Assembly (NCBI GenBank): GCA_019636695.1
Contig: JAHBXD010000004.1
Span: 186,001-250,000, forward strand
DNA: 64,000 nucleotides
Direction: 5' to 3'
Origin: Phycisphaeraceae bacterium
GTDB lineage: Bacteria > Planctomycetota > Phycisphaerae > Phycisphaerales > UBA1924
Below, in pieces: positions 40,959 to 46,500 of this stretch. The translations under genes were made by a program, and so were the position numbers. Position 1 is the first letter of the stretch, and each line of letters opens with the position of its first letter. Under the pieces are notes generated by a model that saw only the letters and a program-made list of their open reading frames with translations, was not told the DNA's origin and searched no databases.

Positions 40959-41363
40959 TCAGGGTCGGTTCAGACGCCAATAGACGAGGTCGTCTTCGGT
41001 GCCGTGGTTGCGGTCTTTGCCTGCCGATTGCAGGGTAAAGGGATTGCCGGTGGTGTCGGGAATGGGCTGGTACCAGAGTTCCTGCTTCCAGGCGTCGAAC
41101 ATCGAGCCTTCGTCTTTGAGGAACTGGGCAACGACCAGAGTTCGGAGCGAATCGGGGTAGACCTTGTGCTCTAAGTAATACGACTCGATCTGCGAGCCGA
41201 CGGTGCGGAGCGTCGCCTCGGTTGCTCGGACATTGGCACGCTCACCGGTTCCGAGAATGTTGACCGCCGCGACCGCCATGAGCACGCCGATGATGGCGAG
41301 CACAAGGGTGAGTTCGAGCAGCGAAAAGCCGCGGGCGAAGCGGCGGGTACGGCGGGTATTCAT
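40959..41363 (-). CDS. gspG: GspG-like major pseudopilin
   Basis: This is the major pseudopilin, 134 residues, the expected length. The leader MNTRRTRRFARG precedes FSLLELTLVLAIIGVLMAVA with Glu5. The hallmark C-terminal region is present: SQIESYYLEHKVYPDSLRTL, DAWKQELWYQPIP, and a calcium-loop-like SAGKDRNHGTEDDLVYW. GGGAG precedes the ATG. A 149-bp gap to the upstream GspF-like gene may hold its own promoter, which would fit high expression of a major subunit. Confidence 0.92.
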   Translation of the reverse strand: MNTRRTRRFARGFSLLELTLVLAIIGVLMAVAAVNILGTGERANVRATEATLRTVGSQIESYYLEHKVYPDSLRTLVVAQFLKDEGSMFDAWKQELWYQPIPDTTGNPFTLQSAGKDRNHGTEDDLVYWRLNRP

Positions 41364-41512
41364 CAGACAGCTCCCGAATCTACAAGGAGGCGAAACTCCG
41401 TACGGCAGATAATTATTCTACGCGGCCCGCTCTTGGTTCCCGCATCGACCGACCATCTCAACGTGCCGTCGGGCCAGGGATTGCGTCACGGGAGTGTCAC
41501 GATTCAGGCACA
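41364..41512 (-). promoter_or_regulatory. Gap before gspG with AT-rich -10-like element
   Basis: In this 149-bp gap the minus strand carries TAGAATAATTATCT (41420-41407), a rare AT-rich patch in GC-rich DNA. TAGAAT is close to a -10 hexamer. No good -35 was found at the right distance, so promoter status is tentative. Confidence 0.3.
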
Positions 41513-42715
41513 TCAGAAGGCCTGGCTGCTGGCGTTCATGATCGGAATCATGATCGAGAGCAGCAGCGAGCCGATCATGGCGAACAGGAGAACCAGCAGC
41601 AGCGGTTCAAAGGCCGCCAGCATCCGCGCTGATTTGCGATCGACCTCGGCCGACATGTCGTCAGCCAGCCCTTCAAACGCGGATTCCAGGTCTCCGGCAC
41701 GCTCGGCGGCGATGAGGAGACGCCGAGTAGCCAGATTCCAGGTGGTCACTTCGTCGATCAGGCGGCGGAGAAGCCCACCCTCAACCAGCCGTGTACGCAG
41801 CGTGGTGAGCTGCTTCCGGAGGTCGGGGTGGTGGACGGCATGCACCGCGACCCCAAGGGCATCGGCCAAGGGCACCGCCGTGCGCGTCATGGCAGCCATG
41901 ACCGAGAAAAACCGGCTCGATTCCTGGGCAAGCAGGACGTCTTTGAGCAAGGGAACATGTCGCGCACCGTGTAGGGCGATCACCCCCAGGGTTTTCCTCC
42001 AGACAACGCCGGCAAATGCGGCGCACATCGCCGCGAGCAGCAGCAGGAGGGCGTTGGCGCGAATCCACATGCCGACGGCGACCATAACTTTGGTGTAGGC
42101 CGGGAGGGGCACGCCGGTTTGGGCGAGGGCGTTGCCGATCTTGGGGACGATCCACGCGACCATGACCAGTGCCACTGCGACGCCGATGGTCAGCACGATC
42201 GACGGGTAAATCATCAGTGTGGCGGCTTTGCCCTTCACAGCGAGCGTTCGCCGGGCGTTGAGGGCCAGTTGTTTGCAAGCACCGGCGAGGTCGCCGGTCC
42301 GCTCGGCGCCTTTGTAGACCGCGATGGTGACGGTATCGAACACCCCGGTCGAGTTGCAGGCTTCTGCGAACCCCATACCCGCCCCGACGCGCTCGCGAAT
42401 CTGGGCGACGATCGGCTGGGCCGCAGGGCGGACGGTTTGTTCGGTCACTTCCAGCGCCTCGACCAGGGGAACCCCTCGGGCCACGAGCTGGGCGAGTTGG
42501 TCGTTGAGTTGGGCGTGGTCTTTGAGCGTCAGTTTGCGCTCACTGGCCAAAAACGCGGGCAACTGCCACGAACGGAGGAGGATCAGTCGATCGCGCCGAA
42601 GCTGTTCGGCTAAGGCCCGCGCGCTGCGCGCCTGCCGCACACCCAGAGAACGTCCGCCGGTCGCCTTGGCGGCGATGTAGACGAACGGCGGGCTGGAGCG
42701 TGCGAGGCGGCTCAC
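41513..42715 (-). CDS. GspF-like inner-membrane platform protein (second copy)
   Basis: This is a protein of 400 residues with two T2SSF-like domains: LNDQLAQLVARGVPLVEALE (about 69) and AQESSRFFSVMAAMTRTAVP (about 262). TM helices include MIYPSIVLTIGVAVALVMVA, ALLLLLAAMCAAFAGVVW and LLLVLLFAMIGSLLLSIMIP. It opens the pseudopilin operon. It is clearly distinct from the copy at 11351, which belongs to the PilM-N-O operon. No ATPase gene accompanies it. Confidence 0.92.
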   Translation of the reverse strand: MSRLARSSPPFVYIAAKATGGRSLGVRQARSARALAEQLRRDRLILLRSWQLPAFLASERKLTLKDHAQLNDQLAQLVARGVPLVEALEVTEQTVRPAAQPIVAQIRERVGAGMGFAEACNSTGVFDTVTIAVYKGAERTGDLAGACKQLALNARRTLAVKGKAATLMIYPSIVLTIGVAVALVMVAWIVPKIGNALAQTGVPLPAYTKVMVAVGMWIRANALLLLLAAMCAAFAGVVWRKTLGVIALHGARHVPLLKDVLLAQESSRFFSVMAAMTRTAVPLADALGVAVHAVHHPDLRKQLTTLRTRLVEGGLLRRLIDEVTTWNLATRRLLIAAERAGDLESAFEGLADDMSAEVDRKSARMLAAFEPLLLVLLFAMIGSLLLSIMIPIMNASSQAF

Positions 42716-44044: not shown

Positions 44045-45079
44045 ATGCGCGCCCTTGTGAAACACCACTCCGGTCCGGGTCTGAAGTTCGATGCCGACCG
44101 CCCCAAGCCGATTCCCGGGGCGCGGGACGTACTGATCCGCGTGACGAAAGTCGGCATCTGCGGCACGGATAGGCATATCTGGGAATGGGATGAGTGGGCC
44201 GCGGGGCGCATCCCGGTCGGCATCGTGACCGGGCACGAGTTTGTCGGTGTGATCGAGGCGGTGGGAAGCGCCGTCACCAACTATGCCCCGGGGGTGCGCG
44301 TGAGTGCCGAGGGGCATGTGACGGCAGGGAAGGATTTCAACAGCCGCACGGGCAACGCCCACATCGCCAGTGATACGCGGATTATCGGGATCGATCGCGA
44401 CGGGTGCTTCGCCGAGTATGTCGTCGTGCCGGAAGAAAACGTCTGGCCGGTGCATCCGAGCATTCCGGATAGGGTGGCCGCGGTGCTCGACCCGCTGGGC
44501 AACGCGGTGCACACGGTGATGGCGGCCGGGGTGAGCGCCAAGAGCGTGCTGGTAACGGGTACGGGGATCATCGGGCTGATGAGTATTACCGTGGCCAAGG
44601 CGGCGGGGGCCTCTCGGATTTTCGCCACAGATCTTGACCCCAGGCGTCGGGCATTGGCGAAGAAACTCGGTGCGACCGAGGTGTTTGATCCGCGTGAATC
44701 GGCATGGATTGACGAGGTGCGCAGGGCCTGCCGCGGCGAAGGTGTTGACGTGCTGTTGGAGATGAGCGGAGCGTCCGCGGCGATGGAGCAGGGATTCGGG
44801 GCGTTGCGCAACGGCGGGGTGGCGGCGCTCCTTGGGTTATTCGGGCGACCGCTGACGTTCGATTTCAACAGGCACGTCATCTTCAAGGGGTGCACGGTGC
44901 TGGGGATCAACGGAAGGAAGATGTTTGAGACGTGGTATCAGATGGAGGAGTTGCTGCTGAGCGGGCGGCTGGAGCTGGAAGAGATCGTGACGCACGAGTT
45001 CCCCTTGGAGGAGTTCGAGCGGGCGCACGAGACGATGATCTCCGGGGAGGGGATCAAGGTGGTGATGGCTGTGGGGTGA
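44045..45079 (+). CDS. L-threonine 3-dehydrogenase-like MDR enzyme lacking structural zinc
   Basis: This is a medium-chain zinc dehydrogenase of 344 residues, closest in pattern to Tdh, which oxidises L-threonine to 2-amino-3-ketobutyrate with NAD. Matching elements are GICGTDRHIWEWDEWAAGRI with catalytic Cys39, TGHEFVGVIEAVG with His64 and Glu65, FDPxGNAVHT equivalent LDPLGNAVHTVM, NAD-binding VLVTGTGIIGLMSITVAK, and FKGCTVLGINGRKMFETWYQ. The lobe that normally carries four structural-zinc Cys (residues about 91-112, GHVTAGKDFNSRTGNAHIAS) has none. The catalytic site seems intact. Substrate could still be another secondary alcohol. ATG 44045 is set by homology. Confidence 0.86.
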   Translation: MRALVKHHSGPGLKFDADRPKPIPGARDVLIRVTKVGICGTDRHIWEWDEWAAGRIPVGIVTGHEFVGVIEAVGSAVTNYAPGVRVSAEGHVTAGKDFNSRTGNAHIASDTRIIGIDRDGCFAEYVVVPEENVWPVHPSIPDRVAAVLDPLGNAVHTVMAAGVSAKSVLVTGTGIIGLMSITVAKAAGASRIFATDLDPRRRALAKKLGATEVFDPRESAWIDEVRRACRGEGVDVLLEMSGASAAMEQGFGALRNGGVAALLGLFGRPLTFDFNRHVIFKGCTVLGINGRKMFETWYQMEELLLSGRLELEEIVTHEFPLEEFERAHETMISGEGIKVVMAVG

Positions 45080-45086
45080 AGCGGCA

Positions 45087-45113
45087 AAATGTCAATCTTA
45101 CAGTTTGACATTT
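45087..45113. promoter_or_regulatory. Palindromic operator candidate upstream of fic
   Basis: AAATGTCAA (45087-45095) and TTGACATTT (45105-45113) are a perfect 9-bp inverted repeat with 9-nt spacer, giving an 18-bp centre-to-centre distance suited to a dimeric repressor. The right arm contains the -35 hexamer of the promoter below. The start of the repeat is only 7 bp after the dehydrogenase stop. Confidence 0.7.
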
Positions 45114-45132
45114 GATTAACACTTGGCACAAT
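45105..45132 (+). promoter_or_regulatory. Sigma70-type promoter of the fic gene
   Basis: TTGACA (45105-45110), 16-nt spacer, CACAAT (45127-45132). Transcription would begin at or within a few bases of ATG 45139, so the mRNA would be leaderless or nearly so. No Shine-Dalgarno is seen before the ATG, which agrees. Confidence 0.6.
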
Positions 45133-45138
45133 CTTTCC

Positions 45139-46500
45139 ATGCGTGTCGAGCCCCCACCGTTCAGCTTTGAGCAACTACCCCATGTTTCGCCTATCCCGGA
45201 ACATGCCCGCCGTCGCTTCATTGCTGAATATCGGCCGTGGAGAAAGTTGCGGTACTTGGCGGAAGAGGAAGGCGTTAAGCCAGAAGACGCCTGGGTGTAT
45301 GTGAAGGCTTGGCGAAGGGACCAATGGATTCCCTTGCCTGTGAGCCGTTGCGAGGGCGGAAAATTCGGATTCGTGCCATCGCCCAGTTTGTACCGGTTGC
45401 TGCACCTGATTGACCGTGCCGCTGGCGACGGTCTGATCGGCCACTCCGTTGCGGCGCAGTCGTCATTACCGATGCGCAAAAGATTGGATGCACTGCTTAA
45501 GCGCGGCGAATTGTTTCCAGCCAGAATGCTTGCAAGTACATCTCATGGGGAAAGTGCAGAATCCTCCATCATGGAGGGCGCGAGTGCGACGCGGAAGGAG
45601 GCGATGGAGATGCTCCGCTTCGGGCGTTCGCCCCGGACACTTGGCGAGCGGATGATTCTCAACAATTTTCATGCGATGCGGATGATCAAAGAACACTTGC
45701 GTGAGCCGCTTTCGCTTGAGTTGCTCTTGGAAGTTCAGTCAGTTATCACCGCGGGAACCCTTGAACCTGTTGATGGTGTAGGAAGGCTTCGCTCTCAAGC
45801 CGACGACGTTCGTGTTGTCGATACTAGAGACCAAAGTACACTCTTCGTACCGCCGAATGCGGGAAGCCTTCGAGTTCTATTAAGCGAAATATGTGCATTT
45901 GCGAATGAGTCTCACGACGGGACGTTTCTGCATCCGATTGTTCGAGCGGCAGCACTTCATTTTCTCATTGGTTACGCGCATCCTTTCGTAGATGGCAATG
46001 GTCGAACTGCTCGGGCTTTTTTCTACTGGAGCATGTTGCGCAGCGGCTACAGTTTGTTCGAGTACCTGTCGATTTCGGAGATCATCCGCATAGGCTATTC
46101 GAGATACCCGCAAGCCTTCGTCGATGTTGAAGACGACGACGGCGACCTCACTTATTTCGTGCAGTACACCTTGGAAGTCCTTGAGCAGGCTCTCGGGCGG
46201 TTCTCTGAGCACCTTGCTGCGGAGGAACTGCGCTTACAACGAAGCGAGCGATTTCTGGCGATTGCCAAAGATCTCAACCTCCGCCAGCGACTGCTGCTTG
46301 AACACGCGCTTCGCCACCCCGGCACGGCATATACCGTCAAGTCCCACTCCAACTCCAACGGCATCACCCTCGTGACCGCGCGGACGGACTTGGACGACCT
46401 TGTCCGCCGCCGTCTGATGACTACGTCCAAACGAGGCAAAGAAGTGCTCTACCACGTAACGGCGACACTTCGTGAGCGCCTCGCGAAAAAGGGGATGTGA
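45139..46500 (+). CDS. Fic-domain protein (class II, N-terminal inhibitory motif) with winged helix
   Basis: This is a predicted AMP-transferase of 453 residues. The Fic active site HPFVDGNGRTARAFFYW (His about 281) is intact. The inhibitory motif (S/T)xxxE(G/N) is seen as SSIMEG near 142, N-terminal to the core, so this is class II and self-inhibited. The C-terminal 90 residues (LLLEHALRHPGTAYTVKSHS, LDDLVRRRLMTTSKRGKEVL) look like a winged helix that could bind DNA. No separate antitoxin gene is adjacent. GC content is lower than in the neighbours, which suggests transfer. ATG 45139 matches the near-leaderless promoter; an upstream start at 45112 would lie inside the promoter. Confidence 0.92.
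   Translation: MRVEPPPFSFEQLPHVSPIPEHARRRFIAEYRPWRKLRYLAEEEGVKPEDAWVYVKAWRRDQWIPLPVSRCEGGKFGFVPSPSLYRLLHLIDRAAGDGLIGHSVAAQSSLPMRKRLDALLKRGELFPARMLASTSHGESAESSIMEGASATRKEAMEMLRFGRSPRTLGERMILNNFHAMRMIKEHLREPLSLELLLEVQSVITAGTLEPVDGVGRLRSQADDVRVVDTRDQSTLFVPPNAGSLRVLLSEICAFANESHDGTFLHPIVRAAALHFLIGYAHPFVDGNGRTARAFFYWSMLRSGYSLFEYLSISEIIRIGYSRYPQAFVDVEDDDGDLTYFVQYTLEVLEQALGRFSEHLAAEELRLQRSERFLAIAKDLNLRQRLLLEHALRHPGTAYTVKSHSNSNGITLVTARTDLDDLVRRRLMTTSKRGKEVLYHVTATLRERLAKKGM

Follow-up and report, generated by a model that had tools for sequence, protein, structure and literature searches.

A palindrome over the promoter of a planctomycete fic gene as the putative operator of its own winged-helix Fic protein

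The window analysed here is a 64,000-nucleotide stretch of a Phycisphaeraceae bacterium contig. A fic gene (45139-46500, plus strand) encodes a protein of 453 amino acids (P0001), for which the Fic domain was the only Pfam domain matched (PF02661, 56.1 bits against a cut-off of 24). The Fic motif HPFx[D/E]GNGRxxR is present at residues 281-292 (HPFVDGNGRTAR), and nearly all of its positions are invariant among 23 aligned members. N-terminal to the Fic core there is a class II type inhibitory motif, [S/T]xxxE[G/N], in the form S142-S-I-M-E146-G147, of which S142, E146, and G147 are invariant in the 23 aligned members. On its sequence, P0001 is predicted to be a class II type Fic protein, an AMP-transferase. 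It was not assigned to the SoFic equivalog family (NF046030), which it matched with 36.2 bits against a cut-off of 550. Nor was it assigned to the Fic proteins of type II toxin-antitoxin systems (FicTA), since the inhibitory motif lies inside the same protein and the upstream neighbor is a gene that I take, from its sequence, to encode a dehydrogenase. No clear small antitoxin partner gene was seen beside fic when the list of open reading frames was inspected by eye. Elsewhere in the window, on the minus strand (40959-42715), there are ORFs which by eye resemble genes for the major pseudopilin of a type II secretion system and for an inner-membrane protein that partners it. Among the fic copies of other genomes, four (L076, L221, G813:C127, and G588:C315) have an internal stop codon in the reading frame and appear to be decaying.

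It was found that a perfect 9-bp inverted repeat with a 9-nt spacer, AAATGTCAA-TCTTACAGT-TTGACATTT, occupies positions 45087-45113 and starts 8 nt after the stop codon of the upstream gene. The left arm of this putative operator (AAATGTCAA, 45087-45095, unstranded) contains the half-site core TGTCAA at 45090-45095. The right arm (TTGACATTT, 45105-45113, unstranded) contains the core TTGACA at 45105-45110; this core doubles as the -35 hexamer of a promoter. The -10 hexamer CACAAT (45127-45132, plus strand) is preceded by TG and is spaced 16 nt from TTGACA. This pair, with 10 of 12 consensus matches, is the sole sigma70-like promoter found in 44900-45400, where 0.2 would be expected. The -10 hexamer ends 6 nt upstream of the fic ATG at 45139, and thus a start 6-8 nt downstream of it would coincide with or adjoin the ATG. 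The perfect repeat over TTGACA and the closeness of the -10 hexamer to the ATG, both reported in a preliminary description of this DNA, were therefore confirmed. No Shine-Dalgarno-like run was seen between the -10 hexamer and the ATG, and the choice of this ATG is backed by the orthologues, which have an M..(D/E)RPPP-like start at the same point. I infer that the fic transcript starts approximately at the ATG, from a near-leaderless promoter. A literature search on leaderless starts in Planctomycetes returned nothing useful.

How unusual is such a palindrome? In the 64-kb window, 16 perfect repeats of at least 9 bp (spacer 2-30) were counted. When the 240 nt upstream of fic were put through dinucleotide shuffling, 7 of 1000 sequences contained a perfect repeat of at least 9 bp; when the 59-nt intergenic stretch was shuffled, 12 of 2000 did. 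These numbers suggested that the palindrome is unusual for its place, being moderately rare, but alone is not extraordinary. The exact repeat word was found in none of 100 whole-window shuffles, and the window has no other match to the repeat at three or fewer mismatches. A genome-wide search for ATGTCAA-N9-TTGACAT, in which two mismatches were allowed, gave this site and one further place, which has two mismatches. A reversed control pattern gave the same genome count, and thus nothing in this genome points to a second target.

The AlphaFold2 model of P0001 (mean pLDDT 86) has a C-terminal winged helix at residues about 381-440 (46279-46458, plus strand). It consists of helices 381-392, 400-407, and 411-423 and of wing strands 427-432 and 435-440. 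Judging from the model, the third helix (411-423) would be the recognition helix. Its first two residues, L411 and V412, are encoded at 46369-46374 (plus strand); as described below, they correspond to the best predictors of half-site spelling. The nearest solved structures to the model are SoFic, CbFic2, Dde_2494, and 7xux, all at about 20% identity or less.

Is the palindrome conserved with the gene? The sister orthologues of the window protein (L003) are L059 (58% identical) and L030 (51%), and the three form a supported clade (SH-aLRT 97*). A dyad of the TGTCAA type, its arms 9 nt apart, is present at all three loci, with one mismatch in each sister dyad. The left half-site core is exactly TGTCAA in L059 and TGTAAA in L030, positioned within 1 nt of that of the window. 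The half-sites lie at -49/-34 relative to the start codon in the window, at -48/-33 in L059, and at -50/-35 in L030, while the -10 hexamers lie at -12, -11 (CAACAT), and -12 (CATACT), respectively. Among the nine fic-bearing genomes searched with the dehydrogenase, fic follows its gene at a distance of 78-717 nt in seven; G536 does not have this arrangement and G711 cannot be told. An empty site was found in a genome of the same genus (G551, contig C14, L222), whose dehydrogenase is 89% identical and is followed by neither fic nor the palindrome. Thus, the putative operator and the gene are present or absent together.

I performed an analysis of inverted repeats over planctomycete Fic loci. 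A tblastn match was available for 102 loci, from which ten were dropped because the match started after residue 35 or because less than 200 nt of upstream DNA was available. The remaining 92 oriented loci still include four same-gene duplicates that come from two collections (L025/L030, L026/L032, L028/L059, and L029/L066). In each locus, the top-scoring inverted repeat was sought within the 240 nt that precede the conserved part. The mean best score was 11.4 upstream of fic versus 6.4 in dinucleotide shuffles, and in the control stretches it was 7.1 at the end of the gene and 6.7 further upstream. Scores of at least 12 were reached upstream of fic in 36 of the 92 loci, but in only three of the downstream controls and in none of the upstream controls. 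The spacer of the dyad is 11 nt in 64 of 83 family dyads, while the 9-nt spacer of the window is common only to the sister clade. Four loci (L039, L054, L058, and L084) have nested double operators around the promoter upstream of fic, in the form of near-perfect palindromes, 89-94 nt in all, whose two dyads also mirror each other.

The spelling of the half-sites differs among these loci. Half-sites were called without regard to the protein residues, as an NNNNAA word with an inverted partner 5-15 nt away, in 82 loci (the 92 minus the four duplicates and six loci without the C-terminal columns). A half-site was called in 55 of them; an exact dyad was absent in the other 27, including L059 and L030 with their one-mismatch dyads. 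The words fall into the groups TACTAA, TGCTAA, TATCAA, TGTCAA, AGTCAA, AAGCAA, and a few more. I compared them with the two residues directly before the conserved T413, namely X1 (411, leucine in the window protein) and X2 (412, valine). In the 55 called loci, bases 3-4 are CT in 37 of 39 loci with Q or E at 412 versus 0 of 16 otherwise, and TC in all 12 loci with A, G, V, or N versus 0 of 43 otherwise. An aromatic residue at 411 goes with the bases TA (35 of 38 versus 1 of 17). L054 (NQ) has TACTAA, contrary to the X1 rule. The preliminary description had proposed a search for the same palindrome upstream of fic homologues. The outcome was subtler than plain conservation or loss: a dyad overlapping the promoter is retained at this place, but its spelling is not and changes together with the recognition helix.

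The pair 411/412 was first noticed by eye on the same data. A scan was then made over all 433 usable protein columns in the 55 called loci, and its ranking is independent of the choice made by eye. For base 2, the best column is residue 411 with a corrected information of 0.68, and the runner-up, D419 (0.37), lies in the same helix. Residue 412 ranks first for bases 3 and 4 (0.74 and 0.78), where the next best columns reach 0.46 and 0.53. The ranking was unchanged when the scan was repeated on 41 non-redundant loci (less than 65% identity). Switches between relatives were also found: L042 (YE) has TACTAA inside a YG/TATCAA group, L005 (YA) has TATCAA beside YQ relatives, and L056 (HQ) has TGCTAA beside L087 (YQ) with TACTAA. 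A tree-based test for independent switches gave three starred pairs for X2 (2.4 concordant and 0 discordant) and two for X1 (1.9 concordant and 0 discordant), which are too few for significance.

The X1/X2 rule was fixed in writing and then run on 48 further loci (41 and 7). Among the held-out close relatives that were callable and in scope, both residues were right in five of five (L112, L203, L204, L233, and L235). Four other close relatives in scope gave no half-site call (L113, L114 with only 108 nt upstream, L221, and L234), and proline at 412 (L219, L238, and L239) falls outside the rule. L238 and L239 have Tyr-Pro before TAR and both have CTATAA half-sites, a possible further class of the residue-base code. 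Among the distant phage and plasmid relatives, eight called loci had X2 in scope; three of them (L105, L122, and L138) obeyed the strict X2 rule, and L115, L118, L124, L136, and L137 did not. Thus, the rule is not claimed for this distant branch. CTCAA-type half-sites recur in the phage and plasmid loci L118, L122, L124, and L137, and no dyad was found in several Vibrio-type loci. On a Klebsiella pneumoniae plasmid, pKp_SB617_1, a gene of the Fic family is preceded by a 13-bp perfect palindrome (TTAACTCAA...TTGAGTTAA, L105:1466-1495), which lies 5 nt upstream of the ATG; in the gene product, the TAR of the recognition helix follows YN.

A sigma70-like promoter recognizable at the threshold of the script was found in 26 of the 55 called loci. 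The half-sites overlap the -10 hexamer in 16 of the 26 and the -35 hexamer in five, and in 25 there is overlap between the half-site span and the promoter. The half-site of the TACTAA group includes the -10 hexamer TATACT, while in the window the -35 hexamer TTGACA is itself a half-site. A dimer bound at such a place would be in direct competition with the polymerase.

Very probably, an autoregulatory Fic protein has the palindrome as its operator and acts on it through its own winged helix. Two C-terminal winged helices of a Fic dimer would dock on the two TGTCAA half-sites, with one recognition helix on each, and residues 411-412 would read the variable bases. With the -35 hexamer as its right half-site, and with transcription presumably beginning at about the ATG, the occupied operator would exclude RNA polymerase; the Fic protein, a predicted AMP-transferase, would thus be kept at a low level. 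The winged-helix C-terminus had already been named as a candidate for autoregulation, and the modeled winged helix at 381-440, together with the rank of 411/412 as the best predictors of half-site spelling, supports that proposal. The dyad and its promoter overlap are computed, as are its place in the sister orthologues, the excess of dyads across the family, and the residue-base association; together they support autoregulation by inference, with binding, dimerization, repression rather than activation, and a leaderless start as its presumed elements.

Could the palindrome have nothing to do with the Fic protein? It begins close behind the upstream stop codon and could fold into a 9-bp stem and a 9-nt loop, as for a transcription terminator or an RNA hairpin ending the dehydrogenase gene. 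This is very unlikely. No terminator-like site was found in 44900-45400, on which ground the terminator reading was rejected; the stem is A+T-rich with no T run after it, and the association between residues and bases across loci would be left unexplained. An accidental repeat is just as hard to credit, even though a TTGACA hexamer favors a TGTCAA dyad at a promoter by chance and the shuffles and the count of 16 in the window allow for it. Chance would hardly give the two sister orthologues a dyad at a matching place and with an equal spacer, nor account for the family-wide dyad excess and the residue association.

Dyads of the TTGACA type are common operator shapes, and the site might belong to a MarR-, TetR-, or XRE-type regulator encoded elsewhere, with Fic merely as the target. 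This is improbable, because the recognition helix of Fic itself holds the best half-site predictor among the 433 Fic columns and because the site is single in the genome and missing where fic is missing. It is about equally doubtful that Fic binds as an activator, or that DNA binding steers its AMPylation, instead of repressing its own gene. For CbFic2, (de)AMPylation is stimulated and switched by DNA binding, according to the accessible part of that report (PMC10628234). On the other hand, the site in the window covers the -35 hexamer itself, so that a bound dimer would exclude the polymerase; half-sites overlap core promoter hexamers at the frequencies given above; and CccR is described as repressing from sites near -35 and -10 (PMC9755527, accessible part).

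An autorepressor of the same architecture backs the proposed autoregulation. As far as the accessible text of PMC9755527 goes, CccR of Yersinia pseudotuberculosis, a FIC domain with a C-terminal HTH, is an effector secreted by the T6SS; it represses its own promoter by using the C-terminal HTH to bind an inverted repeat near -35/-10 which consists of two 10-bp repeats 26 nt apart. Autorepression was shown there by reporter fusion, EMSA, footprint, and ITC. The window protein resembles CccR in its N-terminal Fic domain and C-terminal HTH (a winged helix in the model) and in the inverted repeat overlapping the promoter of its own gene. It differs from the CccR described there in the 9-bp arms (6-9-bp half-sites) and 9-nt spacer (11 in most relatives), in a promoter that seems near-leaderless, and in a -35 hexamer that is itself a half-site. 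The window Fic may work like CccR, by analogy, and is not claimed as its orthologue. The structure 7xux, which is among the nearest solved folds at 18% identity, is probably CccR, judging from its title and date.

CbFic2 of Coxiella burnetii (8cil) is a class II Fic protein whose C-terminal wHTH binds DNA with a change of activity; the accessible text of PMC10628234 describes binding to random DNA and reports neither a specific site nor autoregulation. Its structure aligns with residues 221-451 of P0001, including the winged helix. Of the solved folds, SoFic of Shewanella oneidensis (3eqx and 3zcn), a Fic domain with a C-terminal winged helix, comes nearest (E 3.8e-12, TMt 0.65); P0001 is 20% identical to it. 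According to the same part of PMC10628234, DNA binding by SoFic had not been shown. In the GntR and IclR families, residues of the DNA-binding domain correlate with operator bases across genomes (PMC4494728 and PMC8222616, as far as accessible). Those are dedicated transcription factors, while the reader here would be a predicted AMP-transferase regulating itself.

The principle is not new, since CccR, a Fic-HTH protein, is known to repress its own gene (PMC9755527, accessible part). In the open-access literature searched, CccR and CbFic2 were found, and no Fic operator code was found. Within that literature, the two-residue specificity pattern and the use of promoter hexamers as half-sites are new, and a family-wide, residue-coded operator is undescribed. 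It is likely that a whole branch of Fic AMP-transferases consists of single-gene autorepressors that read DNA by a two-residue code, located where the recognition helix begins. Bases 3-4 would be set by residue 412 (CT for Q/E and TC for A/G/V/N) and bases 1-2 by residue 411 (TA for Tyr and mostly TG for others). Protein and operator would have switched together repeatedly, and the operator of each group would have captured a core promoter hexamer, -35 TTGACA in the window group and -10 TATACT in the TACTAA group.

Many Fic proteins have a C-terminal winged helix, and the association offers a means of reading the operator from the protein sequence. It predicts that the usual role of this winged helix is self-regulation at one site. 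Variants of repressor and operator are naturally paired in these loci, which may serve to test how the specificity of a winged helix changes. In this way, the single experimental case of CccR may be extended to a testable general rule for the chromosomal Fic proteins of environmental bacteria.
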